Below, piece after piece: positions 7,500 through 25,500 of a stretch of 64,000 nucleotides of DNA. The translations under genes and the position numbers were made by a program. The notes under the pieces were generated by a model. That model ran no database searches. It had not been told where the DNA came from and saw only the letters and a program-made list of their open reading frames with translations. The stretch spans positions 1-64,000 of the IMG/VR virus record IMGVR_UViG_3300027861_002706. One strand, given 5' to 3'. The stretch comes from a virus. Position 1 is the stretch's first letter. Every line of letters starts with the position of its first letter.

Positions 7500-8436
7500 A
7501 ATACATAATTTATTAGTAAATCCTTACGTTAAAGAGACCAGACGAGGTGGAGCAAGATACCCCAGTAGTTCTAGCACTACATATATAAATCAATATGGAG
7601 AAGATACAGTTGTAGGAACCTGCCTACGACGTCAATGGTACGCTTCTCAGGACTACGAAGAGACTGGTGAGAGGAATGCCGAGGGTACGATGAAGGCCCT
7701 TGCCGGTAACCTCTGGTCTCAGTTCCTAGTTGATAGAATCAAGGAGGCTGGATTCTGGTATGGGGACGAAACGAGCTTCTATAATGCGGAGCTAAATGTC
7801 TCCGGTAGAGTAGATGTCATAGTGGCCGAGGAGGGCACCAGACACCCCGTAGGAGTGGAGATCAAGACGGTTGGGACCTTTGTATCAAAGGGGGTCATCA
7901 AGCCCACAGCAGCCTACCCACTGGCTCCTAAGGAAGACCATGTTCTACAGACAATGATTTATCTATATCATTATAGGAATGCAATCAAGAAATGGGTATT
8001 ACTATATATGGATAGAAATACCATGGAGATGGCTGAGCATGTAGTAAGACTAGAAGAAGAAGACGGCTATCACTACCCTGTAATTTCCAATGAGATGGGC
8101 GTAAAAGAATGGAAACATATCAGGGTAGAAGATATCATTAGACGCTGGCAAGAATTAGAGATTCATATCAAAAATAAGACTTTACCAGAGAGAGACTATG
8201 AGCTACAGTATGCTAACTCTAAGATAGCTGCTATGTACAATACTGGCCGGCTCACTAAAACTGATTCTAAAAGAATCCAAAGAAGAGTAGAAGCTGGTGA
8301 AGTAGATGATAACAAGCCACCTCTACTGGAGAAAGGAGATTGGCAATGTCGATTTTGCCCGTTTCTTCAGGAATGTTATCGAGAAGAGATCGCACCAGAT
8401 CAGATCTCGAACGAACAGATGGATGCAACACTATGA
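7477..8436 (+). CDS. Cas4-like PD-(D/E)XK exonuclease with Fe-S cluster motif
   Basis: The 319-residue protein has an intact RecB/Cas4 nuclease signature: D113 in SGRVDVIV, E128-x-K130 in GVEIKTVG, and Q158-x3-Y162 in LQTMIYLY. Four cysteines (C49; C291-x2-C294-x5-C300) match the [4Fe-4S] clasp of Cas4 and AddB. Such enzymes resect DNA ends, and in phages they sit among replication and recombination genes, as here directly after the primase-helicase. There is no sign of Cas1/Cas2 or a CRISPR array, so a CRISPR role is unlikely. The stretch from about 7640 to 7930, covering the catalytic core, is clearly more GC-rich than the rest of the gene. The stop overlaps the next start as ATGA. Confidence 0.85.
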   Translation: MASVALDRIHNLLVNPYVKETRRGGARYPSSSSTTYINQYGEDTVVGTCLRRQWYASQDYEETGERNAEGTMKALAGNLWSQFLVDRIKEAGFWYGDETSFYNAELNVSGRVDVIVAEEGTRHPVGVEIKTVGTFVSKGVIKPTAAYPLAPKEDHVLQTMIYLYHYRNAIKKWVLLYMDRNTMEMAEHVVRLEEEDGYHYPVISNEMGVKEWKHIRVEDIIRRWQELEIHIKNKTLPERDYELQYANSKIAAMYNTGRLTKTDSKRIQRRVEAGEVDDNKPPLLEKGDWQCRFCPFLQECYREEIAPDQISNEQMDATL

Positions 8437-8694: not shown

Positions 8695-9702
8695 ATGGAT
8701 AAAGTAGCAATAGTCACTGGTATTACAGGCCAGGATGGATCTTACCTAGCCGAACTTCTTATCTCTAAGGGATACACAGTAGTAGGAACAGTAAGAGCTA
8801 CAGTAACATCAAAGGATGAGAAGTTTAAGAACCTAAATAATATAATTGGTTCTCAAAAGCTCTTTTTAGAGTGCTGTGATATCTGTGACTATGGTGCTAT
8901 TGATAGAATAGTACGTAATTATAGTCCAGTAGAGATATATAATTTAGCTGCACAATCAGATGTAGGAGAATCCTTTAAGACTCCATTGGCTACATGTTCC
9001 ATGAATATGCTTGGCGTAGCAAACCTGCTAGAAGTTATACGGAATAATAATCCCGACATAAGAATGTATCAAGCATCTACATCAGAGATGTTTGGAGATA
9101 ATACTACCACTCCTCAAAATGAAGATACATTGTTCTCTCCAGTTTCTCCGTATGGAGTTGCTAAGTTAGCTGCTCACTACATGGTCAAAAGCTATCGTAG
9201 TTCATATGATATGTTTGCTGCTAACGGAATACTCTTTAATCATGAGAGCCCTCGTAGAGGTGAGAACTTTGTGACTAGAAAGATAACGAAAGCTGCTGCA
9301 AGGATAAAGCTAGGTAAGCAAGATAAGTTAGAGCTAGGCAACCTTGATGCGTTTAGGGACTGGGGATTCGCTGGAGATTATGTAAAAGCAATGTGGTTAA
9401 TACTTCAACAGGATGTACCAGATGACTTCGTAATAGCAAGCGGAGAAACTCATAGCGTGCGAGAACTTCTGGAGTTAGTGTTTAGACATGCTGATCTTAG
9501 TATAGTTGAACATGTGAATACAACAAGTGATTTGTATAGGCCAACAGAAGTACCGAAACTTTGGGGCGATCCCAGTAAAGCAGAAGAGCAATTAGGATGG
9601 AAAAGAGATATGGGATTTGAAGATCTTATTATACATATGTACGAAGAAGATCTTGTGAGAGAGTCGGGAAAAAATACTCAGTACAGTGATATTCTAATCT
9701 AG
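8695..9702 (+). CDS. gmd: GDP-mannose 4,6-dehydratase
   Basis: The 335-residue protein is an extended short-chain dehydrogenase with the NADP-binding GITGQDG at 9-15, typical of Gmd. It also has the catalytic ASTSEMFG at 127-134 (Ser/Thr and E131) and Y153-x3-K157 in SPYGVAK, followed by the substrate-binding FNHESPRRGENFVTRKIT. It converts GDP-D-mannose to GDP-4-keto-6-deoxymannose, the precursor of GDP-fucose, rhamnose, colitose and perosamine. Its length is close to the usual 340-370. A GAAGAAGAA run precedes the ATG and serves as ribosome site. The matching reductase (Fcl) is encoded 9 kb downstream in the same operon, which argues for GDP-L-fucose as product. Confidence 0.92.
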   Translation: MDKVAIVTGITGQDGSYLAELLISKGYTVVGTVRATVTSKDEKFKNLNNIIGSQKLFLECCDICDYGAIDRIVRNYSPVEIYNLAAQSDVGESFKTPLATCSMNMLGVANLLEVIRNNNPDIRMYQASTSEMFGDNTTTPQNEDTLFSPVSPYGVAKLAAHYMVKSYRSSYDMFAANGILFNHESPRRGENFVTRKITKAAARIKLGKQDKLELGNLDAFRDWGFAGDYVKAMWLILQQDVPDDFVIASGETHSVRELLELVFRHADLSIVEHVNTTSDLYRPTEVPKLWGDPSKAEEQLGWKRDMGFEDLIIHMYEEDLVRESGKNTQYSDILI

Positions 9703-10245
9703 ATGGCTAAAAGAAAAAGATATACTGTTCAAGAGATGAGAGCAATGGCTGCTCAAAATCAAAACGATTTTGATATGGTAGCCAAATGGAAAGGTTCTCA
9801 GTCTGACGTAGTAGAACAAAACATTAACTGCCTGGTCTGCGGCGCTCCTAATATAATGATAATTCATAGACATAATATGGTTAATGTAATGGGTGCTAAG
9901 TATCTCTGTGATGCTTGTACTGATTTTGGTTGGGCATGGATGGGTAATCTATGCGCAGAAGATCCAGAAGAAGCACGTCAAAGAGGCACTGTGATAGAGG
10001 AAGGTAGATCGATATCTACTCTAGAAGAGAACGCGAAGGCCGGGGGCGATCGCCTTGAAGCAAATGGAATGTTATTTGGCAGTAGAAAAAAGATTCAAAG
10101 TAGTAATCAGAATCCCACTGCAGCCTATAAGCCTATAAGAAACTTTGATGATGATACTCTTCTATTGCATCTATCTAAATGTAAACACCCCAGAGATATC
10201 GATGAAGGTAAGTCTTGGGAGCTTTGGATAGAAAAGAAGAGATGA
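9703..10245 (+). CDS. Zinc-ribbon-like protein of unknown function
   Basis: The 180-residue protein directly abuts gmd. It begins with a basic MAKRKR stretch and has two CxxC pairs (C43/C46 in CLVCGAPN and C69/C72 in CDACTDF), which probably bind one zinc ion. The remainder is charged, with a C-terminal helix ending in EKKR. Such small zinc-ribbon proteins are common in phages and may contact nucleic acid or other proteins. I do not recognise a named family. Its stop overlaps the next start as ATGA. Confidence 0.6.
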   Translation: MAKRKRYTVQEMRAMAAQNQNDFDMVAKWKGSQSDVVEQNINCLVCGAPNIMIIHRHNMVNVMGAKYLCDACTDFGWAWMGNLCAEDPEEARQRGTVIEEGRSISTLEENAKAGGDRLEANGMLFGSRKKIQSSNQNPTAAYKPIRNFDDDTLLLHLSKCKHPRDIDEGKSWELWIEKKR

Positions 10246-11216
10246 AGCTTTTGTATATGGCACAACTTGTCATGAATCCTATTGGTGGTGCTGAGATAAG
10301 CACTATCAATTTAATAGATAGTTTAAAATCCAACGGGGTAATTGTAGATTATATAGACTCTTCTAACGTAGAAAAGTTCAATCAAGATATAAGTATAATG
10401 GGTCCTGAAAAATATTTCAAAGACTATGATGCAATTTTAACTCAATTAAACTGGACAGGACAAGTATTAGACTTGGCAAAAGCGGCTGGGAAAAAAGCCA
10501 TATACTTTTTCCATAGCTGGGAACATATATGTAAAGTTGGTCACACTGGAATAATTCCATCTATATGTAATAGGATTTGTCGCCATTGTTTCTATAAGAA
10601 TAAAGAGTTTAAGCCAGATTATACTGTAGCAAACTCAGAATATACAAAAAAAATGCTGGAAGATCACTATGATATAAAAAGTGAGGTGATATATCCTTCA
10701 CTTAATCTAAAAGATTTTATATGTAAGGATCGTTCACCAGAGTATATTACTATGTCAAGACTGCATTATATGAAAGGCACAGATAGATTTATTAAAATAG
10801 CTAAACGAATGCCTGACCATAAGTTTAGGATAGTAGGCTATGGTAAAGAGGAGTGGGATGATGACATACCAGCGAACGTTACTGTATCTGGGCACCTAAG
10901 CCCTAAAGAATGCTACCAGGAAGCGTCTCTGTGGTTATCTCCTTCTAGATTCGATTCATTTGGAATGACAGTTATAGAAGCTCAACTAAATAATATACCT
11001 ACGATAGCAACAAATATATGCGCAGTAAAAGAAGATGAGACTGTCATGTTAGGATCTACTATAGATGACGGAGATGATATAGATGAATGGATAGAAAAGA
11101 TATCATATTGGAACAAGAAAGTAGATACGATAAAGCCGAGTAGGTCTATGCTAGAAAAATTTGTCACGACAGAATCGGGGGCTACTCTTATAAAGATTAT
11201 AGAAAACTTAACGTGA
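10242..11216 (+). CDS. Family 4-type glycosyltransferase
   Basis: Starting at the ATG that overlaps the preceding stop (ATGA), this encodes 324 residues; a frame open from 10215 would add nine residues inside the previous gene. GT-B features are clear. NPIGGAEISTINLIDSL lies near the N-terminus, as in many GT4 enzymes. SRLHYMKGTDRFI opens the donor domain. FDSFGMTVIEAQ, after the segment LSPSR, carries the catalytic/nucleotide-sugar region. A cysteine-containing loop (ICNRICRHC) lies in the acceptor half. Donor and acceptor are unknown. It opens a block of four consecutive glycosyltransferase genes. Confidence 0.85.
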   Translation: MKLLYMAQLVMNPIGGAEISTINLIDSLKSNGVIVDYIDSSNVEKFNQDISIMGPEKYFKDYDAILTQLNWTGQVLDLAKAAGKKAIYFFHSWEHICKVGHTGIIPSICNRICRHCFYKNKEFKPDYTVANSEYTKKMLEDHYDIKSEVIYPSLNLKDFICKDRSPEYITMSRLHYMKGTDRFIKIAKRMPDHKFRIVGYGKEEWDDDIPANVTVSGHLSPKECYQEASLWLSPSRFDSFGMTVIEAQLNNIPTIATNICAVKEDETVMLGSTIDDGDDIDEWIEKISYWNKKVDTIKPSRSMLEKFVTTESGATLIKIIENLT

Positions 11217-12142
11217 AGATTTTACTGACACTTAATAAAACACTATCTAACGGGAAATCAAAATGGCTAGATAGTGGTTACTATAATGTATATCTACCCT
11301 TAAAAGATCTAGATCATGAAGTTTATCTTTGGGATACAGTAGAACCAGACAATCCTAACTATTCAAAAGTAGTTGAAGATTTTAAACCTGATTTGATATT
11401 TTGCTGTATTACTGGTGACCAAAGCTTGACACCTGCAGAACATCTTTGTATGGAAAGTATTTCAAAAGAGACAGAAAAAGGTAACTGCAAGACTTTTAAT
11501 TGGTTTTGCGACGATGTCTGGCGATTTGATAACTTCTCTAGTAAGATGTGTAAGCTATTTCATGTATGCTCTACTACAGAACCTAGCTATATCTCTAAGT
11601 ATAAAGAAATTGGATATAAGAATATTATATTAGGGGGATGGCATGTTAATAAGGATTTTCACTTAGCAACAAATAATAACAAGATACACGACATGGTCTT
11701 TATTGGGCATCTAAATAATCCAGAAAGAGTATGGCTTATAGATTACTTAAGGACTAGTAAGGTTGACATTAAAACTTTTCGAGGAGTAGACCATGGTGAT
11801 ATGGTTAGTAAAATGAGCCAATCTAAAATAGGTATAAACTTTAGTAAAAACTATTGTGGGTTTCCAGTCAAGACCCAAGTTAAATTAAGACCATTTGAAA
11901 TAGCTGCAGCAAATAGTCTAATATTTACTCAGTATCATAAAGATCTTGAATATTTTTTTGAGCCAGAGAAAGAAATGATTTGTTTTAAAGATGAAATAGA
12001 AATGCTCGATAAAGCTAAGTTTTTATTATCAAATCAAAATCAAATAAAAAGAATTACTAATAGCGGTAATGTTAGGTTTAATAACGAACATGAATCTCAT
12101 ATTAGAATGAAAAAAATACTGCAAGAAGCAATGGATAAATGA
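11213..12142 (+). CDS. CgeB-like GT-B glycosyltransferase
   Basis: The 309-residue protein starts at a GTG overlapping the preceding TGA. The C-terminal half has the CgeB/Glyco_trans_1_2 pattern: IGINFSKN...KLRPFEIAAANSLIFTQY and an acidic end of the donor domain (FEPEKEMICFKDEIEM). The N-terminal half has a Rossmann-like opening (MKILLTLNK) and an FNWFCDDVWRFD segment typical of this group. These enzymes are inferred to transfer sugars in surface polysaccharide or glycoprotein clusters. The next gene is of the same general type, so the pair may come from duplication or make sequential linkages. Confidence 0.75.
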   Translation: MKILLTLNKTLSNGKSKWLDSGYYNVYLPLKDLDHEVYLWDTVEPDNPNYSKVVEDFKPDLIFCCITGDQSLTPAEHLCMESISKETEKGNCKTFNWFCDDVWRFDNFSSKMCKLFHVCSTTEPSYISKYKEIGYKNIILGGWHVNKDFHLATNNNKIHDMVFIGHLNNPERVWLIDYLRTSKVDIKTFRGVDHGDMVSKMSQSKIGINFSKNYCGFPVKTQVKLRPFEIAAANSLIFTQYHKDLEYFFEPEKEMICFKDEIEMLDKAKFLLSNQNQIKRITNSGNVRFNNEHESHIRMKKILQEAMDK

Positions 12143-13035
12143 AAATTTATATAAAAGACCATCCTTCTCATGCTGGTAAGTGGATATATCGTGGCTACTT
12201 TTCTGCCTGGAGTTTCTTAAAATACGAACCTGTTTTTTATAACAGCCTTGATATAGTTAAAGAACAAAACTATATGATCATGTCAACAGATTCCTCAGTA
12301 TCTCTTAAAGATTTAGATACAATAAGTAAATCTGAAAAATCTTTTATTTTTGTTCAGCCTAACTGCTTTCCAGATCCATGGGGAAAACATCCAAACTTTT
12401 ATTCTTGTTGCAAGGATGAAATTATAGACTCACTAAATAAAATGACAAATGTTATTTTATGGACTTTTCTAGATACTAAAGATGAATACTATAAAAAATG
12501 GGACAAAATTTATACCATTCCATTAGCATATGATTCACTAAACTATAGCAAGAATATAGAAAATAAATACAATTTCGATGTCTGCTTTATCGGTGGAATA
12601 GCAGACAATGGATTCAATGAAAAGTATAAAATAATGTGTGACCATTTTGATGTACTTAGAAACTCGAACCTGCAATGCGGAATTTTTATAAACAAAAACT
12701 TAAGTCACCAAGAAGAAAATGATATTATCTGTACCAGCAGAGTCACGTTAAACATACATGATGCGTACCAGAGAGAGCTAGGACTGGACACCAATGAAAG
12801 AACTTTTAAAAGTCTTGGATTGAATGGATGTTTGGTCAGCGATAAAGTTAATCAAATTTCAAGAATTTTTCCATATATACAAATGTCTAGTGATCCAAGT
12901 GAAATGCTAAATATAGTTCAGCACTATATTTCTATGAGAAGTGATCAACTTCAAGAGATAAAAGATAGTAATAGGGAATTGATAGCTAAAGACCATACTT
13001 ATATTGAACGAGTAAAGGAAATTCTAAAAAAATGA
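12139..13035 (+). CDS. CgeB-like glycosyltransferase, second copy
   Basis: The 298-residue protein overlaps its upstream neighbour by 4 bp (ATGA). The C-terminal part VTLNIHDAYQRELGLDTNER, followed by TFKSLGLNGCLVSDKV, matches the donor-binding region of CgeB-like GT-B enzymes: a conserved N/R-E/R-F-E position followed by a small-residue turn. The N-terminal half is divergent, with FVQPNCFPDPWG and WTFLDTKDEYYKKWD. The gene is noticeably richer in A+T than the flanking structural region, with heavy AAA/AAT codon use. Substrate unknown. Confidence 0.65.
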   Translation: MKIYIKDHPSHAGKWIYRGYFSAWSFLKYEPVFYNSLDIVKEQNYMIMSTDSSVSLKDLDTISKSEKSFIFVQPNCFPDPWGKHPNFYSCCKDEIIDSLNKMTNVILWTFLDTKDEYYKKWDKIYTIPLAYDSLNYSKNIENKYNFDVCFIGGIADNGFNEKYKIMCDHFDVLRNSNLQCGIFINKNLSHQEENDIICTSRVTLNIHDAYQRELGLDTNERTFKSLGLNGCLVSDKVNQISRIFPYIQMSSDPSEMLNIVQHYISMRSDQLQEIKDSNRELIAKDHTYIERVKEILKK

Positions 13036-13760
13036 ATCCTAAAGTATCTATAATAATACCCTGCTACAATACAGAAAAGTATGTGGAGCAATGTGTATAT
13101 TCTGCTTTAGACCAAGACTATAAAAACATAGAGGTTATTGCTGTCGATAATGAAAGCACTGATACAACAAGGGATCTTTTGCTTGAAATACAAAAGAAGA
13201 GAATCGAACTAATAGTAGATGACGCACCAAATCTTCATAAGTACTCTTGGGATGAAGCAAGAAATGTAGCTTTAGAAAGATGTACTGGAGACTATATAAC
13301 TTTTATTTGCTCTGATGACTTCTTAGAAAAAGAATATATATCTACTTACGTGAAGTTTTTAAACGCCAATCCAGAGTATTTGGCTATGCAGAGCCCCATA
13401 AGGGGAGTACAAGATGGACAACCTACAAGCATTCAATCTCATTCCTATGGTTCATTAGAAAATTTTAAGCAGCAATGCCTACAGGGATGTCCAGTAAATA
13501 CACCTACCGTAATTTATAGTAAAAAACTGTATAATGATGGACTGTTAAAAACTTTCCCAGAAAAATACTACGGAGCAGCTGACTACGACTTATATTGCAG
13601 ACTAGCCGATAATGAAGTAATGATACATTTACTTCCCATGTGGATCGGCTATAACTATAGGTGGCATCCTGAGCAGTGCACGTGGGGAATGCATAAAGAA
13701 CCCGTTAGTTATGATCAGTTAATTCAGAATTACTGGAGAGATAAATGGACACAGGTTTAA
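13032..13760 (+). CDS. Family 2 glycosyltransferase (GT-A)
   Basis: The 242-residue protein has the standard GT2 opening KVSIIIPCYNTEKYVEQCVY at 4-23, then IEVIAVDNESTD, which contacts the nucleotide. GDYITFICSDDFLEKEY provides the D-x-D/SDD metal site at about 95. A later ED/AD region (GAADYDLYCRLAD) matches the catalytic base and lipid or acceptor side. It has no membrane segments, so it acts at the cytoplasmic face. It overlaps the CgeB-like gene by 4 bp and the ThDP-alpha gene by 16 bp. Confidence 0.88.
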   Translation: MNPKVSIIIPCYNTEKYVEQCVYSALDQDYKNIEVIAVDNESTDTTRDLLLEIQKKRIELIVDDAPNLHKYSWDEARNVALERCTGDYITFICSDDFLEKEYISTYVKFLNANPEYLAMQSPIRGVQDGQPTSIQSHSYGSLENFKQQCLQGCPVNTPTVIYSKKLYNDGLLKTFPEKYYGAADYDLYCRLADNEVMIHLLPMWIGYNYRWHPEQCTWGMHKEPVSYDQLIQNYWRDKWTQV

Positions 13761-14353
13761 CCCCATCTGATTTAAGAGCATTTGAACTAAAAGTCTTTGA
13801 CTTATTTAAAAACAAGAAGATTAAATCCCCCATACATTTAAGAGGGGGAAATGAAGAGCAGCTAATAGAAATATTTAAGGGTATTAATCCGGAAGACTAT
13901 CTCTTTCTTACATGGGCTAGTCACCTGGAGTGTCTTTTAAAAGGTGTACCGGAAGAAGAAATACTAGAAGCCATACTTGCAAACAAATCCATATGTTTGT
14001 CATTTAAAGAATACAATGTACTGTCTTCTGCAATTGTTGGAGGCAATGCCCCTATAGCTACAGGAATTGCCCTGGGTTTAAAGCTGAACAGTAAAGAAAA
14101 CGGGGTGTGGTGCTTTGTTGGCGACATGTCTTTCTATACTGGCGCAGTACAGGAGAGCATTAGATACTCTGAAGTACATGATCTCCCTATAACTTTTGTA
14201 ATAGCAGACAATAAAAAGAGCGTAGAAACCCCCACGTCTGCTGTCTGGGGGACAGGCATAAAAGACTTGGCCGATAAATCAAATAAGTGTATCTACTATG
14301 AGTACGAAAATTACTTTTTGCACGCTGGAATTGGAGAGAAGGTACTCTTTTGA
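13745..14353 (+). CDS. ThDP-dependent enzyme, alpha (pyrophosphate-binding) subunit
   Basis: The 202-residue protein resembles the E1-alpha of 2-oxo acid dehydrogenases and the N-terminal half of transketolases. HLRGG at 31-35, then GGNAPIATGIALGLKL and GDM at 126-128, followed 28 residues later by N156, make the Mg/ThDP pyrophosphate motif (GDG...N, here GDM). It is shorter than a full E1-alpha. Together with the next gene it forms a split catalytic core. Comparable pairs in sugar pathways (AviB1/AviB2 in avilamycin biosynthesis) add a two-carbon unit to a keto-sugar. The neighbouring rfbH-like and dehydratase genes support such a role rather than central metabolism. Confidence 0.8.
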   Translation: MDTGLTPSDLRAFELKVFDLFKNKKIKSPIHLRGGNEEQLIEIFKGINPEDYLFLTWASHLECLLKGVPEEEILEAILANKSICLSFKEYNVLSSAIVGGNAPIATGIALGLKLNSKENGVWCFVGDMSFYTGAVQESIRYSEVHDLPITFVIADNKKSVETPTSAVWGTGIKDLADKSNKCIYYEYENYFLHAGIGEKVLF

Positions 14354-14877
14354 ATTACGCAGAAGAGCTTAAAAAAGCAATGCTTTATTTGTCAGAACAG
14401 CCAGACACTATATTCATTGGACAAAGCATGGAATATGGTGGAATTGCAATGGCAAGTTCATTTGACACGATACCAGCTGACAAGAAGATGGAGATGCCTG
14501 TAGCAGAAAATCTACAGATGGGTATATCTACCGGCTTAGCTCTAACAGGACATGTACCTGTATCAGTTTATCCAAGATGGAACTTTTTATTGCTAGCAGT
14601 AGACCAATTGGTAAACCACTTAGATAAATTGTCTGAAATGACTAGAGGAAAATATAATCCAAAAGTAATCATACGCGTTGCAGTTGGAGTCAAGTCACCA
14701 ATTGACCCGCAAGAACAACATGTAGGTGATTTTACTGAAGGGTTTAAAAGTATACTAAGAAATATAAATGTTGTTAAATTAAACAACGCAGAAGATATAA
14801 TGCGAGAGTATAAGAAAGCATACACTAGTGAAGATGGCGTATCTACCGTATTAGTAGAAGAGCATCAGTTTGCCTAG
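14350..14877 (+). CDS. ThDP-dependent enzyme, beta (pyrimidine-binding) subunit
   Basis: The 175-residue protein starts at TTG overlapping the preceding stop (TTGA). It matches the transketolase/E1-beta pyrimidine domain: MPVAENLQMGISTGLALTG at 49-67 holds E53, the glutamate that activates the cofactor's aminopyrimidine ring. VSVYPRWNFLLLAVDQLVNH follows. The usual C-terminal transketolase domain of E1-beta is absent; the protein ends directly after VLVEEHQFA. With the alpha subunit this gives the two domains needed for catalysis, but not the domain often used for assembly or lipoyl partner contact, so it probably does not belong to a pyruvate dehydrogenase complex. Confidence 0.8.
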   Translation: MNYAEELKKAMLYLSEQPDTIFIGQSMEYGGIAMASSFDTIPADKKMEMPVAENLQMGISTGLALTGHVPVSVYPRWNFLLLAVDQLVNHLDKLSEMTRGKYNPKVIIRVAVGVKSPIDPQEQHVGDFTEGFKSILRNINVVKLNNAEDIMREYKKAYTSEDGVSTVLVEEHQFA

Positions 14878-15706
14878 GGTTTTAATCACTGGAATAACAG
14901 GGTTCTTAGGTAAAGAACTAAAGGAGTACCTGTTTTCCTATGAAATCACAGGTATATCCAGATCAAGTGAGATCTCGATTGATCTTACAGACAGATCACA
15001 GGTAGATCTGTTCTTTAAATGCAATAGCTTCTTTGACTACGTCATACATACTTCTGTTGCCGGTGGTAAAAGAGGTGTTTACGACGACTACGATGTATTG
15101 TTGAAAAATCTATTAATGTTTGACAATATAATATCTAATAAAAGACACTTCGGTAAAATGTTTAATTTTTGTTCTGGCGCAGCATTCGGAAGATCAAACA
15201 ATGTAGTTCAGGAAAAAGAAGAAAACATTGGAAAGTATTGGCCTACAGATTACTACGGACTATCAAAAAATATAATAGCAAGAAAAATTAAGCAATTAAA
15301 TTACGTATATAATCTTAGATTATTTGGATGCTTTGGAAGACATGAGGGGTTCTCCAGATTCATCGGGTCTTATATCAGACAGATTAAATATGGTGAACGA
15401 CCAGTAATTCATCAAGACAAGCAGATGGATTTCATATCTGCACAAGATGTGTCAAAAATTATAGAATACTATATAGAAAATCAAGATCAAGATCTACCTA
15501 GAGACATTAACCTTGTCTACCCAGAAAAATTAAGGATACTAGACATAGCAAAAAAGATTGAAAGAATAACTGGTTCAGGTATACTATCTTTAATCCAAAA
15601 CCCTGGAATGGGAAACACATATACTGGTGATGGATCCAAGCTTCAGTTGCTAGGAATAGAATTAGATGGTTTAACAAAAGGAATTGAAGATTATGTCATC
15701 AAGTAA
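14870..15706 (+). CDS. NAD(P)-dependent sugar epimerase/reductase (extended SDR)
   Basis: The 278-residue protein starts at TTG inside the end of the ThDP-beta gene. GITGFLG at 8-14 is the dinucleotide motif. S102 in NFCSGAAFG and Y129-x3-K133 in YYGLSK are the SDR catalytic residues. The later part has DFISAQDVSKIIEYY, the usual extended-SDR substrate-domain contact. In this position, between a ThDP pair and an rfbH-like gene, it could reduce a keto group on the side chain or ring of the sugar, as YerF does in yersiniose synthesis. The exact reaction is inferred from context; epimerase is the main alternative. Confidence 0.8.
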   Translation: MPRVLITGITGFLGKELKEYLFSYEITGISRSSEISIDLTDRSQVDLFFKCNSFFDYVIHTSVAGGKRGVYDDYDVLLKNLLMFDNIISNKRHFGKMFNFCSGAAFGRSNNVVQEKEENIGKYWPTDYYGLSKNIIARKIKQLNYVYNLRLFGCFGRHEGFSRFIGSYIRQIKYGERPVIHQDKQMDFISAQDVSKIIEYYIENQDQDLPRDINLVYPEKLRILDIAKKIERITGSGILSLIQNPGMGNTYTGDGSKLQLLGIELDGLTKGIEDYVIK

Positions 15707-17021
15707 AGACGATGTCTTAAAGGCTGTTAGAGAATTTTTCCGTGGTAAAAGTTCTAGCTGGGACAAAGAGAAAGACTGGGTAAAGTATTCAGGGCCGTCC
15801 TTTGACGAAGAAGAATATGTAGCAGCAGTTGAATCACTGTTATCAGAATGGCTCATATTTGGCAAATATGCTGCTGAGTTTGAGCGAGTTTTTCCAAAGT
15901 ACTTAGGTAAAAAGTCAGGGATCCTAACTAACTCTGGTAGCTCAGCCAATCTGTTAATGATGACAGCAGCTAAATCAAATAACTTGTATGGATTTGAGCC
16001 CGGAACAAAGATACTTACACCTGTAGTATGTTTTCCAACTACAATTAATCCGATTCTACAAAACGGGTTTGAACCCGTTTTTGTAGATGTAGAACTGCCT
16101 AGCTTAAATCTCAACTTAGATCATGTAGAAAGAAAGCTTGCTGAGTATCCTGACATAAAAGGTATTACTTTTGCCCATGTCTTAGGTAACCCTCCAGATA
16201 TGGAAAGACTTATGAGTATTGTAAAAGAACATAATCTAGTCTTTTTTGAAGATGCCTGCGACGCCCTGGGCTCATACTATGACGGCAATAAGCTTGGATC
16301 ATATGGACATATGTCTAGCTGTTCATTTTTCCCTGCCCATCATATGAGTATGGGGGAGGGGGGCCTTGTAGCCACCGACAATGCAAGAGCAAGGAAGGTT
16401 CTAACCTCCACACGCGATTGGGGAAGAGCCTGCTATTGCAATACTGCTAAGCCTGGAGACGTGACCTGCGAGACTGCCTGTGGTGACAGATTTAAGAACT
16501 GGCTGCCCGGTATGCCAGAGGTAACATATGATCATAGATATGTATTTGACGAAATTGGATACAATTTAAAGCCATTAGACCTGCAGGCAGCCATGGGATT
16601 AAAGCAATTAGACAAGTTGGAAAAGCTAGATGCTGCAAGAAGAAGCAACTATAAAAAATTATATAAAATATTCTCTAAATACGAAGAGTATTTTTATTTA
16701 CCAGAAGCAACTAAAAAGTCTGATCCATGTTGGTTTGGATTCTCTATAATTGTAAAAGACAACTCACCTTACAAAAGAGAAGATATAGTTAGACATCTGG
16801 AAGCAAACAGGATACAGACTAGATCCTATTTTAGTGGAAACATCTTAGCTCACCCAGGGTACAATCATATGGCCAAAGGACGTGACCTAGATAAGGAATT
16901 CCCTGTTGCAAAAAAGGTTACAGCAGATTGTTTTTTCCTTGGCACATTCATAGGGCTTACCGAAGAAAAGATAGACTACATAGAGGAAAAGCTAGATAGT
17001 CTACTCAAGGGAAAACAATGA
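15693..17021 (+). CDS. rfbH: RfbH-like NDP-4-keto-6-deoxyhexose 3-dehydrase
   Basis: I chose the ATG at 15693, preceded by AAGGAA; a TTG nine bases upstream is possible. The 442-residue protein is of the DegT aminotransferase fold, but the PLP lysine position reads H in FFPAHHMSMGEGG, as in RfbH/AscC (E1). That enzyme uses PMP to remove the C3 hydroxyl of CDP-4-keto-6-deoxyglucose. Numbering from the upstream TTG, C192-x57-C250-x-C252 matches the E1 [2Fe-2S] motif. The last ligand (C262 or C266) is shifted by an insertion compared with the usual x7 spacing. DIGYNLKP-type DEIGYNLKPLDLQAAMGL follows as in RfbH. The partner reductase (E3) is not in the window. A GC-rich patch covers about 16320-16500. 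Confidence 0.85.
   Translation: MSSSKDDVLKAVREFFRGKSSSWDKEKDWVKYSGPSFDEEEYVAAVESLLSEWLIFGKYAAEFERVFPKYLGKKSGILTNSGSSANLLMMTAAKSNNLYGFEPGTKILTPVVCFPTTINPILQNGFEPVFVDVELPSLNLNLDHVERKLAEYPDIKGITFAHVLGNPPDMERLMSIVKEHNLVFFEDACDALGSYYDGNKLGSYGHMSSCSFFPAHHMSMGEGGLVATDNARARKVLTSTRDWGRACYCNTAKPGDVTCETACGDRFKNWLPGMPEVTYDHRYVFDEIGYNLKPLDLQAAMGLKQLDKLEKLDAARRSNYKKLYKIFSKYEEYFYLPEATKKSDPCWFGFSIIVKDNSPYKREDIVRHLEANRIQTRSYFSGNILAHPGYNHMAKGRDLDKEFPVAKKVTADCFFLGTFIGLTEEKIDYIEEKLDSLLKGKQ
16057..16086. repeat. Inverted repeat inside the rfbH-like gene
   Basis: AAAACGGG (16060-16067) and CCCGTTTT (16074-16081) flank a 6-nt loop. The outer bases CTAC/GTAG extend the symmetry with one bulged T. The A run on one side and T run on the other resemble a bidirectional terminator, but it lies in coding sequence for QNGFEPVFVDVE, a conserved DegT-family segment, so it may be coincidental. 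Confidence 0.4.
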
Positions 17022-17965
17022 AAATAGTTTATGTAACAGGGTGTTTGGGTTTTATAGGATCCCACATAACGGCCAGATACTTAGATGAAGGATGGATGGT
17101 CTATGGTATAGATAAGTGTACTTACGCATCAAATACTGACCTTCTAGATAAGTTTAGGCAGTTTCCTAACTTTAGGTTTGAAAAAACTGATATAAAAGAT
17201 ATAAAACATTTATATGACTGCGACTACATAATAAATACTGCTGCAGAATCACATGTGGAAAACAGTATTATTAATAGCGATGAATTTATTAATAGTAATG
17301 TGCTTGGAGTAAAAAACTTACTTGATTTAATTAGAAATAAGGCAAAGAACTGTAATCCTAGACCAATAATGCTACACATTAGTACGGATGAGGTCTATGG
17401 AGACATCGAAAGCGGCAACCATACAGAAGAAAATTTGCTACGCCCTAGCAACCCATACTCGGCTGTTAAAGCTGCTGCAGACATGCTAGTGCTAGCATGG
17501 GCACGCACATATGGCATTGAATATATAATATTACGTCCTACTAATAACTATGGCATTGGACAATACCCAGAAAAGTTAATACCTTTATCAGTAAAAAATC
17601 TAATAAGAAATAAAAAGATCAGATTACATGATGAAGGAAGACCTATACGTAATTGGTTGCATGTAGAAGATACAACTGATGCCGTAATGAAAGTAATTGA
17701 ATCTGGCCAAGTAAATAATATATATAATATTGCAGGAGGATTTGAACAAACAAATGCCGATACAGTAAAAAAGGTTATATCTGCATATCATAATACTGAA
17801 GACTGGCAAGCCTATGTAGATTTCAATTATTCGCGTAAGGGACAAGACGTAAGATACGCCCTAGACGACACAAAAATAAAAGCTTTAGGGTGGGAACCTA
17901 AAAGGGTATTCGACGAAGAAATAAATCTAATTGTAAAGCACTACAAGGAAAATTTTATATGGTAG
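17018..17965 (+). CDS. rmlB: NDP-glucose 4,6-dehydratase (RmlB-like)
   Basis: The 315-residue extended SDR has TGCLGFIG at 7-14 and DKCTYASN at 32-39. AAESHVENSI at 75-84 is near-diagnostic of RmlB, and the catalytic triad region STDEVYGD (T123, D124, E125) is intact. PYSAVK carries Y147-x3-K151, and RPTNNYGIGQYPEKLIP follows. It oxidises, dehydrates and re-reduces NDP-glucose to NDP-4-keto-6-deoxyglucose. The D-E pair is that of dTDP-type enzymes, but in this setting the substrate could be CDP-glucose, feeding the rfbH-like dehydrase whose gene overlaps it by 4 bp. No nucleotidyltransferase (RmlA or RfbF) is present in the window, so the activated sugar would come from the host or another phage gene. 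Confidence 0.9.
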   Translation: MKIVYVTGCLGFIGSHITARYLDEGWMVYGIDKCTYASNTDLLDKFRQFPNFRFEKTDIKDIKHLYDCDYIINTAAESHVENSIINSDEFINSNVLGVKNLLDLIRNKAKNCNPRPIMLHISTDEVYGDIESGNHTEENLLRPSNPYSAVKAAADMLVLAWARTYGIEYIILRPTNNYGIGQYPEKLIPLSVKNLIRNKKIRLHDEGRPIRNWLHVEDTTDAVMKVIESGQVNNIYNIAGGFEQTNADTVKKVISAYHNTEDWQAYVDFNYSRKGQDVRYALDDTKIKALGWEPKRVFDEEINLIVKHYKENFIW

Positions 17966-18813
17966 ATAGTAAAATGAAAACAGCATGCTTAATCTACGCA
18001 ACGAAAAGTTTCCACGAAAGGTTAGCTCATTGTGCACTTAGAAGTTTTAAAAAATGGCACCCAACTATCCCTGTAATAGGGGTTAAGACTGATCACGTTA
18101 CTCCTGATATAGAAATGTCAGAGTTGGACGAAGAGATGCTTATGGTTATAGGTATACGGAAATATGCTCTTGCAAGTAGAGCTATGAAAGAGAATAACCT
18201 AGATAAGATTATAATTCTAGGGTCTGATACTATTACCTGTGGAGTACTAGATGAATTTATAGACAATAACTCAGCAGACATCCTAGCAACTTTGGATTAC
18301 CCATACCCTATATCTACCGCCGTATTTAATGGACAAGGGTATGAACATTTAAATGCTGATGTTGTATGTTTTAACTCTACGGAAGCTATTGATAGTATTG
18401 TTGAAAGAAGCCCTGCGCACGGTCATTGGTGTGAGCAAGGTGGTTTAAATGAAGTGTACTATACATCTGGATTTAAATGTGAAACCGTAGACTCCCCATA
18501 TAATGAATCTAATGTTGCATATAATGTTAGATCCAAAGGTAATACAGTAGCATCCCCTATGACTCAATGGGAATACACTAATAAGTTTATAGTTAGAGAT
18601 TCTAAGTTACTCATACCTACTCCCACCTTACAAACTAGATTGAAGCATTTGAAAGTATGGCATTATTGTGAAGGGTTCGGATGTTTGGATTACACATCCC
18701 AGAAAGAACGTATGGATTATTGGTTTACTAAAGGGTTTAACGAAGAAACTAAAAAATTCTTTAAAGAAGAGTGTGATTGCGGGGATTTCTTTGATGGAGA
18801 TTTTACACTATGA
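17959..18813 (+). CDS. GT-A nucleotide-diphospho-sugar transferase (GT8/GT77-like)
   Basis: The 284-residue protein begins with MKTACLIYATKSF-type strand-loop sequence (an inner ATG at 17974 is an alternative start). IIILGSDTITCG at 85-95 looks like the metal-binding region, with SDT in place of DxD. DILATLDYP and CEQGGLNEVYY (about 158-168) correspond to the acceptor/donor floor seen as D/EQ..LN in GT8-type enzymes. The C-terminus is acidic and cysteine-rich (EECDCGDFFDGD). It overlaps the dehydratase and GDP-fucose synthase genes by a few bases. Donor unknown; GDP-fucose or the dideoxy sugar made by its neighbours are the natural candidates. Confidence 0.65.
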   Translation: MVDSKMKTACLIYATKSFHERLAHCALRSFKKWHPTIPVIGVKTDHVTPDIEMSELDEEMLMVIGIRKYALASRAMKENNLDKIIILGSDTITCGVLDEFIDNNSADILATLDYPYPISTAVFNGQGYEHLNADVVCFNSTEAIDSIVERSPAHGHWCEQGGLNEVYYTSGFKCETVDSPYNESNVAYNVRSKGNTVASPMTQWEYTNKFIVRDSKLLIPTPTLQTRLKHLKVWHYCEGFGCLDYTSQKERMDYWFTKGFNEETKKFFKEECDCGDFFDGDFTL

Positions 18814-19709
18814 AAGTAGTAGTTACAGGAGGCTCGGGATTTCTAGGAACTAGGCTTCAATTAAAAAACCCAGATTGGATTTATATTTCATCAAAAGACG
18901 CAGACTTAACCAATTATAATGAGTGTATAAACCTTTTCAACAAGTACACTCCCGACGCAATCATACACTTGGCTGCTAAAGTAGGAGGTATCAAGGAGAA
19001 TGCTACGAAACCTGCCGAATTCTATGATATTAATATACAGGTAAATACTAATGTTTTAAAAGCCTCATACAAGTGTGGCATTAAACGAGTTTTATCCTGT
19101 TTGAGTACTTGCACCTTCCCTGATGCAGTTTCGTCCTACCCTTTCTCAGAAGATAATATATTCGATGGACCTCCCGCTATTACTAATAGGGCTTACGGAT
19201 TCACAAAAAGGGCTTTGTACATTCAAACTCTAGCATATAGAGAGCAGTATGGAGTTAATTATTCCTGCTTCTGCCCTTCTAACCTTTACGGACCTAATGA
19301 TAATTTTGATTTGGAGTCTTCCCACTTCGTACCTGCTCTTATAAGGAAATTAGAAGAATCTGAAGATGGAGATAGTTTAGAGTTATGGGGAACTGGAAAT
19401 CCAAAGAGACAGCAACTTTATGTCGATGACTTAGCAGAGATCATCCCCATACTATTGGAAAAACATAATTCGGACATACCTCTTATCGTTGCACCGAATG
19501 AAAACTTTAGTATAAAGGAGATGGCAGATATCAGTAGATCTATAATAGGTCGAGAGATAACTTTCACATTCAATGGAAGCCTTGATGGACAGTTTAGAAA
19601 GGATGGGTCTAATGAAAAGTTTAAAGAGCTCGTCCCAGACTTCGAATTTACTTCTTTTAAGAAAGGATTAAAGCAAACTTATGAGTGGTTTAAAGAAAGA
19701 ACAAGATGA
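18810..19709 (+). CDS. fcl: GDP-L-fucose synthase (epimerase/reductase)
   Basis: The 299-residue SDR has VTGGSGFLG at 5-13, HLAAKVGGIKEN at 53-64, the S99-T-C101 segment in CLSTCTFP, and Y129-x3-K133 in RAYGFTK. SNLYGPNDNFDLESSHFVPALI carries H172. These match Fcl/WcaG, where Ser, Cys, Tyr, Lys and His carry out 3,5-epimerisation and 4-reduction of GDP-4-keto-6-deoxymannose. The C-terminal region fits the family's substrate domain. With Gmd encoded at the start of the operon, the phage has both steps from GDP-mannose to GDP-L-fucose. It overlaps the previous gene by 4 bp. Confidence 0.92.
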   Translation: MKVVVTGGSGFLGTRLQLKNPDWIYISSKDADLTNYNECINLFNKYTPDAIIHLAAKVGGIKENATKPAEFYDINIQVNTNVLKASYKCGIKRVLSCLSTCTFPDAVSSYPFSEDNIFDGPPAITNRAYGFTKRALYIQTLAYREQYGVNYSCFCPSNLYGPNDNFDLESSHFVPALIRKLEESEDGDSLELWGTGNPKRQQLYVDDLAEIIPILLEKHNSDIPLIVAPNENFSIKEMADISRSIIGREITFTFNGSLDGQFRKDGSNEKFKELVPDFEFTSFKKGLKQTYEWFKERTR

Positions 19710-20340
19710 TTTTAATTGGGAGATGTACACCACCCTATACTATGAGAGAGAGATGGTAGAGGGACTCCAAAGACGGGATTCGCTCGACATGTTGGTAAAG
19801 AGTTCTTATGTTGATCGAGCCTTAGAGCCTAAAGTGGTATACTCGGATAACCTGCACTCTAATTGGAAAGAGTTATATAATCAGATATGTACGCTAGGGG
19901 TTAGCTCTGTCTTTGAATGTGGTACTGGATGTGCCCATCATTTAATTAACATATGCAAGCTTTGTCCTGAAATAATGATTAATGGTTGTGATTATTCCCA
20001 ATCTCAAATAGACTTAGGGTACAAGTATTTCTCCTTAATAGAGTATTCCTTTGCTAAAAGACTTAAGATAGTAGATATGACTACTCAAGAAGCTACAAAA
20101 GGACTACCTACCTCTGAATTTGTATATACGCAAGCTGTAACTATGCATCTAAGTTGGGATAGAGCTAAAAAGTTCTTAACTAATATGGGAAAGTTATCTA
20201 GTAAGTATGTCTATTTGATCGAAAATATTTATGCGCATGATTACTCCGCACTATTGAAAGAAGCTTTACCTGAGTTTGAAATAGCATCCGCTAATTCTGA
20301 TTATATTATAGGAGCAATCTTATTAAAGAGGAAAAGATGA
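19681..20340 (+). CDS. Class I SAM-dependent methyltransferase
   Basis: The 219-residue protein has motif I VFECGTGCAHHL at 77-88, then NGCDYSQSQI at 101-110 (acidic residue binding the SAM ribose) and a motif-IV-like FVYTQAVTMHL. The N-terminal 75 residues are helical and may bind substrate. The start at 19681 overlaps fcl by 29 bp; an ATG at 19723 would trim 14 residues. As the last gene of the sugar operon it may O-methylate a sugar, as is common for capping O-antigen chains, but a protein or nucleic acid target cannot be excluded. Its stop directly abuts the stop of the convergent gene. Confidence 0.75.
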   Translation: MSGLKKEQDDFNWEMYTTLYYEREMVEGLQRRDSLDMLVKSSYVDRALEPKVVYSDNLHSNWKELYNQICTLGVSSVFECGTGCAHHLINICKLCPEIMINGCDYSQSQIDLGYKYFSLIEYSFAKRLKIVDMTTQEATKGLPTSEFVYTQAVTMHLSWDRAKKFLTNMGKLSSKYVYLIENIYAHDYSALLKEALPEFEIASANSDYIIGAILLKRKR

Positions 20341-22566: not shown

Positions 22567-25500
22567 TTATCCTATAAACCAAGCAAATGCTTCTGCAGGA
22601 GTAAGATCAGAAGACCCGCCACCACCAGGAAGATTTCCTATTTGAACTTTCTTTTTAGCATGCAGTGCTGCACTATCTTCAATGATAAGAAGGTCTGCCG
22701 ATACCGGAGTTGTCTTTTCAGTAAGAGACGATATTTCAGCCGCGACATTATCATGGATAGCAGTTCCATCTGCTCCATCATCAACTGTCGGGTTAGGATA
22801 GGTACCGCCTAGATCACCACCGGCTGATCCATTTGGTGGACGACTAGCACTTGAGTCATCCAATGTGGCATCAGTAACAACAGCGTTTAATTCAGCTAGA
22901 GTTCCGGCATCAAGATTACCTATGTCTGTATTATGCGGATTAGTTTTACTGCTGAGATGGGTATCTATGGTAGCATGAGTATTACTGCCTACATTTTGTA
23001 TAGCAGTATGGTCTATATCGCCTTCAATAAAGTGTACTGTTCCGCTAGCAGTATGCGCATTAAAATCTACTAATGCAGCCTTAGTATCTCCTAAGGTATC
23101 TACATATGTTTTATTGGCTGCATCGAGAGTTGATCCAGGAGCTTTTGTAACTGTTAGTGTTTTGCCAGCTGGAATAGTAAGACTACCTGATATAGTTTGA
23201 TCACCAGTAGCAGTTTTATCAAGATATACATCTGAAAGATCTCCATGGTTAAAGTTCTTCGGCATATTAGCCGTAGACCCTCCTGGAAGATCAGCAGGAT
23301 TTAGATTCTTAATAGTCGATTCAATGCCGATATAATCTATATGGGCCTGTTGATAGTAAAGGGCAAGATTTGAACCTGCATTGATATAATGCCCAGTCTC
23401 AGGAACAAGTTTAAGATATATATTGTCTCCAGTAAATGGATTTATTATTGCAGGCGAGTGTATCACTCCGATCGCGTTTGTTGGAACAATATTTCCTGTG
23501 GCTAAGACGCTTCCAGTAGTATGTACTCCTCCTGTTACGGAGACAGGATAGATAGAGTAATCCATAGAGACTAAGTAGATGGCATTGCCAGCTTTACTCA
23601 TATGTACGTGGACTTCTTCAATAGTAGATTCATATCCTGGCTCGATAATATTTGTATTATATTCTTTATATTCTATCACTGGATCAGTGTAAGTATCATC
23701 AACATCGTCGGTTATAGTATTGCCATGTATCGAATCAGCTAAAGTAAATGATTCGGATTGAAAATCATGTTCGAATAGATGTATATGACGATTAACAAAT
23801 TTAGAAACACTAGTATCCCAAACTAGCGAATCCATTCCACTTACATTTGTTACAGATACATCCGCTAATCCAGCAATACTAGTGAAGTGTATGTCTGTGT
23901 CACTGGTGTGGAGTATAATGGTTGCAGACTGAGCATTAAAGTTATCAACGGTGGCATAGCTACCGAAGTCAACTATCTGGGACTCAGTGATATCTATCTC
24001 ACCAGTCGTGAAGTGGATGCCCGTGTCGCCAGTGTGTGGTACAAACTCACTGGTTAATGTATATTGTGGGTGGTCATTGTCGGATAGCCCAAGTATGTTC
24101 CCGTGATCTATCTCACCAGTAGTGAAGTGGATGCTCGCATCACCGGTGTGACCTGTAAAGTTGCCACTGAGGTCGTTAACATAAGTGTTGGTAGCATATG
24201 TGCCAAGGTCAACTATCTGGGACTCAGTGATACTGATCTGGCTTGTTGTAAAGTGGATGCCCGTGTCACCAGTATGCCCTGTCATGGCTGTGACATGGTT
24301 ATCTATATCATCATGACTGTTAATACCTATGTTAGTTATAAGAGTGTGATTGATATCGCCTTGAGTAAAGTGGATATCGGCATTACCTGTGTGCCCTGTA
24401 AAGTTGCCACTAAGAGTATCAACATCACTGCTACTACCGGCTGGAACCCACGCCGGCATAGCATCTATTCCTCTAGTTTCCAGCACGTATCCACTATTAG
24501 CGGCGTCTAATTCTATCCAGTCTCCTCCGCTGTTAATCAGAATGGAGCCAGTGTCTGTGTTATTTTCAGTAACATTACCAAAATTATCTAAAGATACTCC
24601 AGCATATGCCACACTTCCAGGGGTAGAAACCCATCCTCCATAGGCAGTCTGGTATATTAAAAAATGTCCCTGGGTGGCGTGGGCGGGGTATCCAGGAGTA
24701 GATGGATGGCTTACATCACCTATATCAATCAGGCCTGTTATTGAAGCAGTTGCCCATGATGGATAGCCATCGGAGCCTTGCTGCAGAAACAGTCCAGTAT
24801 TGTCAGTACCTGTGACTAGTCCTGTTAAAGTTGATCCAGTACCATAATATATTGATCCATCGTCGATTGGATTAGGAGTATCTGAAAGACCGATGAAGTC
24901 ACTAGCGCCGGCGCCGGCGCTACCACTCACATTAGCAGGTTTCCAAGTTCCACCTGTGAATGTTAATACTTGTCCTGCAGAAGGAGAAATAGCAGATACG
25001 TCATCTAATCCAGTAAGCTTAGTGAAGTGTATGTCCGCGTTACTGATATGCGGTATAAAATCACTAGTTAATGTGTACTGGGGGTGGTCATTGTCAAGTA
25101 GCCCAGCTATGTTTCCGTGATCTATCTCACCTGTAGTAAAGTGAATGCTTGCATCCCCAGTGTGCCCTGTGAAGTTGCCACTAAGAGTATCAATATCACC
25201 GACACCACCAGCTGGAACCCACGCCGGCAAAGCATCTGTTCCTCTTGTCTCCAAGACATATCCGCTATTAGCAGGGTCTAGCTCTATCCACGTTGCACCG
25301 CTGTTAATTAGAAGAGAACCAGTGTTTATATTGTCTACAGTGACGTTACTTAAATAACCGAAAGGTATCCGTTCCGCCATAATAGCGGGAGTTACCGGAA
25401 CCCAAAAACCTGAGTCGGTTAGGTTTGCTTCATATACTAGAACCTTCCACGGCTCGGGTGCTCCATATACTTCGAAATTAACATCTGTTAATCCAGATAG

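Follow-up and report, generated by a model that had tools for sequence, protein, structure and literature searches.

A viral sugar cassette with an exchangeable thiamine diphosphate carboligase, probably a route to a 4-C-branched 3,6-dideoxyhexose

Five genes on one strand, each overlapping its neighbour, occupy positions 13745-17965 of a viral DNA stretch that comprises bases 1-64000 of the 117.6-kb IMG/VR virus record IMGVR_UViG_3300027861_002706; this stretch is called the window, and all positions are numbered along its whole length. A first-pass annotation had read these genes as the alpha and beta chains of a thiamine diphosphate (ThDP) enzyme, a short-chain dehydrogenase/reductase (SDR), an RfbH-like 3-dehydrase and an RmlB-like 4,6-dehydratase, and assignment by Pfam, NCBIfam and PHROGs recovered all five open reading frames where it had placed them, in matching families (Table 1). 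Besides the sugar cluster, the record carries baseplate, primase-helicase and structural genes, and its sequence suggests terminase- and portal-like genes beyond the window.

The alpha chain matches E1_dh (PF00676; 52 bits, residues 11-165), has the ThDP motif GDM-X27-N and a His60 that is invariant across the family, and its AlphaFold model (pLDDT 92) finds human pyruvate dehydrogenase (PDH) E1-alpha as the top PDB match (4.4e-13). The beta chain scores weakly against Transket_pyr (22.7 bits, under the cut-off), while its family profile picks up E1-beta chains (1e-10) and its model (pLDDT 92) is best matched by PDH E1-beta (TM 0.85); Glu53 and His124 are invariant, the former standing at the alignment position of the PISE-motif glutamate in E1-beta. 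By sequence, profile and fold, the pair combines a PP domain in alpha with a Pyr domain in beta, both of the E1 type, as in alphaKADH2 enzymes. Each chain is about half the usual E1 size and ends where the ThDP domain ends, and neither a transketolase-C domain (PF02780) nor an E2 catalytic domain (PF00198) was found in the 117.6-kb record. Of an E1-type 2-oxo-acid enzyme, the pair (202 and 175 residues) has just the two domains that bind ThDP, and it therefore cannot be a normal PDH, whose central-metabolism E1 has full chains and an E2 partner; a reading as a miniature PDH was likewise dropped, the record having no PF02780 or PF00198 domain. Full-length E1-alpha proteins form a group of their own on the alpha tree (support 99), and the pair, judged from its sequence, is a distinct short family within the E1 superfamily. 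The grouping with PDH or transketolase of central metabolism, which the first-pass annotation had named as fatal to its proposal, is thus not seen. Moreover, no TPP_N domain of the YerE type (PF02776, TPP_enzyme_N) was found in the 117.6-kb record, and the window pair is not YerE-like.

The RfbH-like protein exceeds the cut-off of NF011936 (449.8 bits vs 423). Its His220, in the motif FFPAHH, occupies the position of the aminotransferase lysine that binds pyridoxal phosphate, and on this ground a transaminase reading was rejected. The [2Fe-2S] cysteines, C192-X57-C250-X-C252-X13-C266, are invariant in the aligned phage set, with a final spacing of 13 rather than 7. The nearest solved structures are cytidine diphosphate (CDP)-4-keto-6-deoxyglucose 3-dehydrases (6e-96), followed by ColD (4e-48), an enzyme without an iron-sulfur cluster (PMC8987622). 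The RmlB-like protein has the catalytic motifs and scores 306 bits against TIGR01181, under the cut-off of 365, and 79 bits against CDP_4_6_dhtase; its ten best PDB matches are all named as dehydratases of thymidine diphosphate (dTDP, TDP)-glucose, and dTDP is the likely nucleotide. The SDR matches Epimerase (PF01370), with Tyr129 and Lys133 forming its YxxxK motif, and the top solved relative of its profile is dTDP-4-dehydrorhamnose reductase; its proposed function is that of YerF, the reduction of a branch ketone.

Two expected partners are missing, as had been said earlier of the window, and their absence extends across the 117.6-kb record: neither the E3-type domains Fer2 and NAD_binding_1 nor an NTP_transferase (nucleotidyltransferase) domain was found in this record, which may be incomplete. 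Near 138 phage RfbH genes, no E3 was detected with a single-sequence search and a motif, both of them weak probes, and no nucleotidyltransferase by motif or single-sequence searches. The 3-dehydrase SpnQ can work without an E3 of its own (PMC8987622), so that the missing E3 speaks only against a two-enzyme E1/E3 system and not against the identity of the 3-dehydrase. Given this precedent and the two absences, the host probably supplies both nucleoside diphosphate (NDP)-glucose and electron carriers.

The surroundings of related genes were surveyed at loci that queries with alpha, beta, SDR and RfbH had retrieved. These loci (L numbers) are IMG/VR contigs, viral by the classification of that collection, and their genes were called with profiles built for the analysis at fixed thresholds; the sampled loci are related sequences, so that the tallies do not count independent cases. 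Where the arrangement is otherwise alike, the position adjoining SDR-RfbH-RmlB, here termed the slot, holds alpha and beta in the window, L197 and L225, a split transketolase in L184, L205, L241 and L254, and a YerE-like enzyme in L185, L209, L253 and L164, usually with one ThDP family per slot. A ThDP carboligase lies within 6.5 kb of RfbH, in the slot or elsewhere, in 115 of 138 distinct phage RfbH loci (alpha/beta 38, YerE-like 36, split transketolase 31, combinations 9, partial 1), a few alpha/beta counts (e.g. L038, L045, L050) being DegT-linked pairs near an opposite-strand RfbH. ThDP gene, SDR and RmlB occur together in 85 of these 138 loci; RmlB is within reach in 120, 106 of which have a ThDP gene. 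Among the loci found by the RfbH query alone, 50/68 have one. When the survey was centred on the SDR (4 kb each side), 42 of 44 full-context loci had a ThDP partner (alpha/beta 16, transketolase 14, YerE 11, double 1) and 34 had RfbH, and the ThDP gene within 60 bp of the SDR was beta in 22 cases, the C-terminal half of the transketolase (TK-C) in 13 and YerE in 2.

On approximate FastTree phylogenies, the ThDP type changes at least 42 times along the RfbH tree and at least 31 times along the SDR tree, and the well-supported branches alone force far fewer changes. The closest typed relative of the window RfbH, 73% identical, is that of L184, whose slot holds a split transketolase. Pairs of ThDP types co-occur below expectation, with P values that are descriptive only, the rows being related. 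Pfam confirmed the split transketolase halves, the three-domain YerE-like protein, PanB and the MhpE- and MhpF-type proteins in representatives. For two YerE-like enzymes from phages, the match to 8rph reaches 595 and 433 bits, whereas the top-ranked acetolactate synthase reaches 260 and 236; 8rph is the structure of JanthE, which is YerE-like and can use 4-hydroxy-2-oxovalerate (PMC12188165). Donor genes resembling PanB or MhpE/F accompany YerE in 14/44 loci vs 1/94 others, and none was found in loci with alpha/beta alone. One contig (L071:2007-10006) holds RfbH, a JanthE-like enzyme, acylating acetaldehyde dehydrogenase, 4-hydroxy-2-oxovalerate aldolase, RmlB, alpha/beta and SDR, a complete-looking donor route of the erwiniose type plus an alpha/beta pair; its MhpE-type aldolase would be expected to yield 4-hydroxy-2-oxovalerate for the adjacent JanthE-like enzyme. 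Elsewhere, the YerE-like gene is separated from the SDR by a gene for a PanB-like ketopantoate hydroxymethyltransferase (L193:5256-7974; L185, L209), which suggests a hydroxymethylated 2-oxo acid as donor.

The earlier proposal of a phage route to a branched 3,6-dideoxy sugar gains support from these three ThDP families, which exchange beside a conserved SDR, RfbH and RmlB, and it is quite probable that the cassette makes a 4-C-branched 3,6-dideoxyhexose of the yersiniose type. The direct evidence consists of gene content, active-site residues, families, conserved association and slot exchange; from it we infer substrates, reaction order, donor, nucleotide, product and role. The RmlB-like enzyme would first convert host NDP-glucose, most likely dTDP-glucose, to NDP-4-keto-6-deoxyglucose, from which the RfbH-like enzyme, using pyridoxamine phosphate and its [2Fe-2S] cluster, would strip the hydroxyl at C3, drawing its electrons from ferredoxin or flavodoxin systems of the host and needing no dedicated E3, as with SpnQ. 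The short E1-type pair would then add an acyl carbanion to the C4 ketone, most likely with pyruvate supplying the two-carbon unit, to give a tertiary alcohol that bears an acetyl branch, and the SDR would turn the branch ketone into a hydroxyethyl group. Finally, glycosyltransferases of the cluster may add the sugar to a glycan, which could be carried by the virion, the host surface or DNA.

Keto-sugar branching is a known or proposed activity of three ThDP superfamilies: the decarboxylases that resemble YerE, the alphaKADH2 pairs of E1 type, and the split transketolases (PMC12247030). If the slot acylates a 4-keto-3,6-dideoxy intermediate and the SDR then reduces the branch ketone, this would explain why the same three families exchange beside a constant SDR. 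In related phages, a split transketolase or a YerE-like enzyme, the latter at times accompanied by genes that make its donor, takes the place of the proposed branching module; with the branching enzyme swapped in this way, the branch chemistry appears to be varied as a module. Known E1-type branching enzymes are reported to use pyruvate as donor and to give C2 branches only; KbDH-alpha/beta, a pair of this type, is restricted to pyruvate, which it joins to ketones in vitro (PMC12247030). Because of this, and because the alpha/beta-alone loci bring no donor genes, acetyl from pyruvate is the likeliest donor by analogy. It also seems reasonably likely that in uncultivated phages a modular RmlB/RfbH/SDR cassette, its slot swapped repeatedly among three unrelated ThDP families with donor genes travelling with one of them, diversifies a C4-branched dideoxy sugar of a surface glycan, the minimal E1-type pair representing largely viral ketone-accepting carboligases.

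Several observations weigh against a branched product. The alpha motif has GDM where GDG is usual; the E3 and nucleotidyltransferase were not found; and 23 of the 138 RfbH loci have no ThDP gene, some being short contigs and some having Gmd/Fcl only. In a control centred on Fcl, ThDP genes were present in 8/13 loci with RfbH and also in 5/38 without RfbH in reach; four of these five carry the cassette SDR and four RmlB, so that they resemble this cassette, with its RfbH either missing or beyond the range surveyed. Furthermore, the short alpha/beta family also stands beside a DegT aminotransferase, a B12-radical-SAM protein and an RmlC-like epimerase, and because of these other contexts the family as a whole is not specific to RfbH products.

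A branched sugar made with another donor, such as a longer 2-oxo acid or a glycolyl unit, is a variant that overlaps with the preferred reading; it is unlikely, but its probability is not negligible. The PanB or MhpE/F genes beside YerE-like enzymes indicate that related slots seem to use other donors, the MhpE/F-YerE module of L071 stands together with alpha/beta, and split transketolases are expected to transfer hydroxyacetyl (PMC12247030). However, the C2-only branches of the known E1-type enzymes and the restriction of KbDH to pyruvate (PMC12247030) argue against another donor, and the lack of detected PanB or Mhp genes in alpha/beta-alone loci fits a donor that is always available.

It is also conceivable, but improbable, that RmlB and RfbH make a 4-keto-3,6-dideoxy sugar whose C4 ketone is reduced by the SDR to a plain 3,6-dideoxyhexose, the ThDP pair being unrelated. 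Members of the SDR superfamily reduce C4 ketones in the abequose and paratose pathways, and dTDP-4-dehydrorhamnose reductase is the top solved relative of the window SDR. Yet a C4 reductase would use up the acceptor of the ThDP enzyme, whose gene is often immediately beside the SDR; the SDR, moreover, keeps a ThDP partner more often than an RfbH partner, whatever the ThDP family.

Marginally less credible is a colitose-like route, in which RfbH would take guanosine diphosphate (GDP)-4-keto-6-deoxymannose from the Gmd of the cluster and not the RmlB product. The cassette is indeed flanked by Gmd and Fcl genes, and some phage RfbH genes adjoin gmd/fcl with no ThDP gene in reach, whereas RmlB is near most RfbH genes, usually together with a ThDP gene, and the window RfbH has the iron-sulfur cysteines that are absent from ColD and is nearest to the 3-dehydrase E1 (PMC8987622). 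That the pair is a host-metabolism gene, a reduced PDH or acetoin enzyme rerouting host carbon with no link to sugars, is very improbable: PDH E1 is the closest to both chains by sequence and fold, but the record has no E1-beta C-terminal or E2 catalytic domain, full-length E1-alpha groups apart, and the pair is part of a sugar operon of overlapping genes, where other carboligases take its position in relatives.

The cassette is not confined to the window. A search of viral contigs with the alpha alignment gave 507 relatives, the best 80 of which were listed; two further viral contigs have the same gene set, with alpha 75-78% identical, and dozens hold it with exchanged members. RfbH/SDR-linked alphas are strongly clustered on the alpha tree (5 changes vs 36.8 in shuffles). 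GTDB genomes contain at least 14 cellular alpha relatives, and the RfbH cassette is absent from the displayed neighbourhoods of the 14 listed. In 297 genomes of the phylum of L088, a Bacteroidales bin, the sole strong alpha match was the seed genome; the other matches reached at most 118 bits in frames of at least 310 residues, and those inspected resembled ordinary E1-alpha, several lying beside E1-beta or E2 genes. Plasmids searched with alpha yielded E1-alpha-type genes at about 30% identity or below. In a second large phage alpha/beta group (L009:6473-10833 and similar loci), the neighbours are an RmlC-like epimerase, a DegT aminotransferase that lacks the RfbH motif and a B12-binding radical SAM protein; this group probably serves another branched or amino sugar route.

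In the window, the cassette is flanked by four recognisable glycosyltransferases on the 5' side, with Gmd further upstream, and by Fcl on the 3' side (Table 1). In other loci, a B12-binding radical SAM protein, a candidate for an extra sugar modifier, adjoins the cassette (L002:9922-11667, Pfam-confirmed; weak matches downstream of rmlB in L190, L202, L204 and L112). Shortly upstream of the sugar cluster, positions 7477-8436 of the window encode a Cas4-like exonuclease family protein (phrog_1706, phrog_1990). Positions 22567-28644 encode a probable fibre protein of 2025 residues in which NASNIASTGATNAAAIATN-type segments are repeated.

Table 1. Genes of the cassette and of the sugar cluster around it
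Feature	Position	Strand	Evidence
ThDP enzyme alpha chain, PP domain only, 202 aa	13745..14353	+	E1_dh PF00676; AlphaFold; PDB fold match
ThDP enzyme beta chain, Pyr domain only, 175 aa	14350..14877	+	weak Transket_pyr; profile; fold
Extended SDR, YxxxK, proposed branch-ketone reductase (YerF role)	14870..15706	+	Epimerase PF01370
RfbH/E1-type NDP-4-keto-6-deoxyhexose 3-dehydrase	15684..17021	+	NF011936; His220; Cys192, 250, 252, 266
RmlB-type NDP-glucose 4,6-dehydratase (STDEVYG, YxxxK)	17018..17965	+	TIGR01181; nearest dTDP-glucose enzymes
GDP-mannose 4,6-dehydratase (Gmd-like), sugar cluster of the cassette	8695..9702	+	library matches
Glycosyltransferase (Glycos_transf_1 type)	10215..11216	+	
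Glycosyltransferase (PF13524, CgeB-like)	11213..12142	+	
Glycosyltransferase (PF13524, CgeB-like)	12139..13035	+	
Family-2 glycosyltransferase, immediately 5' of the ThDP slot	13032..13760	+	similar-sized gene before the slot in relatives
Probable glycosyltransferase	17959..18813	+	no Pfam match; assigned from sequence reading only
GDP-fucose synthase-like (Fcl), sugar cluster of the cassette	18810..19709	+	library matches
Methyltransferase-like protein (phrog_3382)	19681..20340	+	PHROGs

Branched 3,6-dideoxy sugars occur in bacterial O-antigens, and related octoses in antibiotics. If the proposed route is correct, phages build and vary some of the most elaborate deoxysugars known, the branch-adding enzyme being exchanged as a module. 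Such cassettes would be a large natural source of ThDP enzymes that accept ketones, among them split transketolases and the minimal two-domain E1 type, for which there are few or no characterised examples (PMC12247030), and the proposed branching role of split transketolases would become directly testable. No description of a phage branched-sugar cassette of this kind was found in the open-access literature, and none of 50,697 records of named phages matched the cassette SDR marker.

Homologues of alpha and beta occur in sugar clusters of the cyanophages S-SM2 and P-TIM68 (L003:9992-11200, L004:10049-11194), where they are annotated only as 'transketolase central region-containing protein' (phrog_34187). 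In their version, alpha and beta are fused in one chain of about 400 residues, the alpha part is 36-41% identical to that of the window, and the neighbouring genes encode zinc alcohol dehydrogenase, kinase, nucleotidyltransferase and phosphoheptose isomerase; the annotated stretch has no RfbH.

The yersiniose pathway of Yersinia pseudotuberculosis has the same order as that proposed here, with 4,6-dehydration, C3 deoxygenation, ThDP acylation at C4 and branch reduction. It is, however, CDP-linked and employs a 4,6-dehydratase, E1 with a dedicated E3, YerE (of the one-chain FAD/ThDP decarboxylase family) and YerF, whereas the window has a short E1-type pair and an RmlB-type dehydratase, with no E3 or nucleotidyltransferase found. 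AviB1/AviB2, Pau11/Pau12, the aldgamycin pair and KbDH-alpha/beta are likewise two-chain E1-type ThDP enzymes that add a C2 branch to a keto-deoxysugar; these alphaKADH2 enzymes come from antibiotic clusters, while the phage chains, likened to AviB1/B2 by description, are trimmed to the ThDP-binding domains. Enzymes like YerE, ErwE and JanthE belong to a superfamily other than that of the window pair and take the same slot in sister phage cassettes, the phage copies matching JanthE best. The split transketolases reported number 13, every one from a streptomycete and none assayed in vitro (PMC12247030), and the third occupant of the phage slot, also a split transketolase, resembles by description the split-gene enzymes of miharamycin and amipurimycin.

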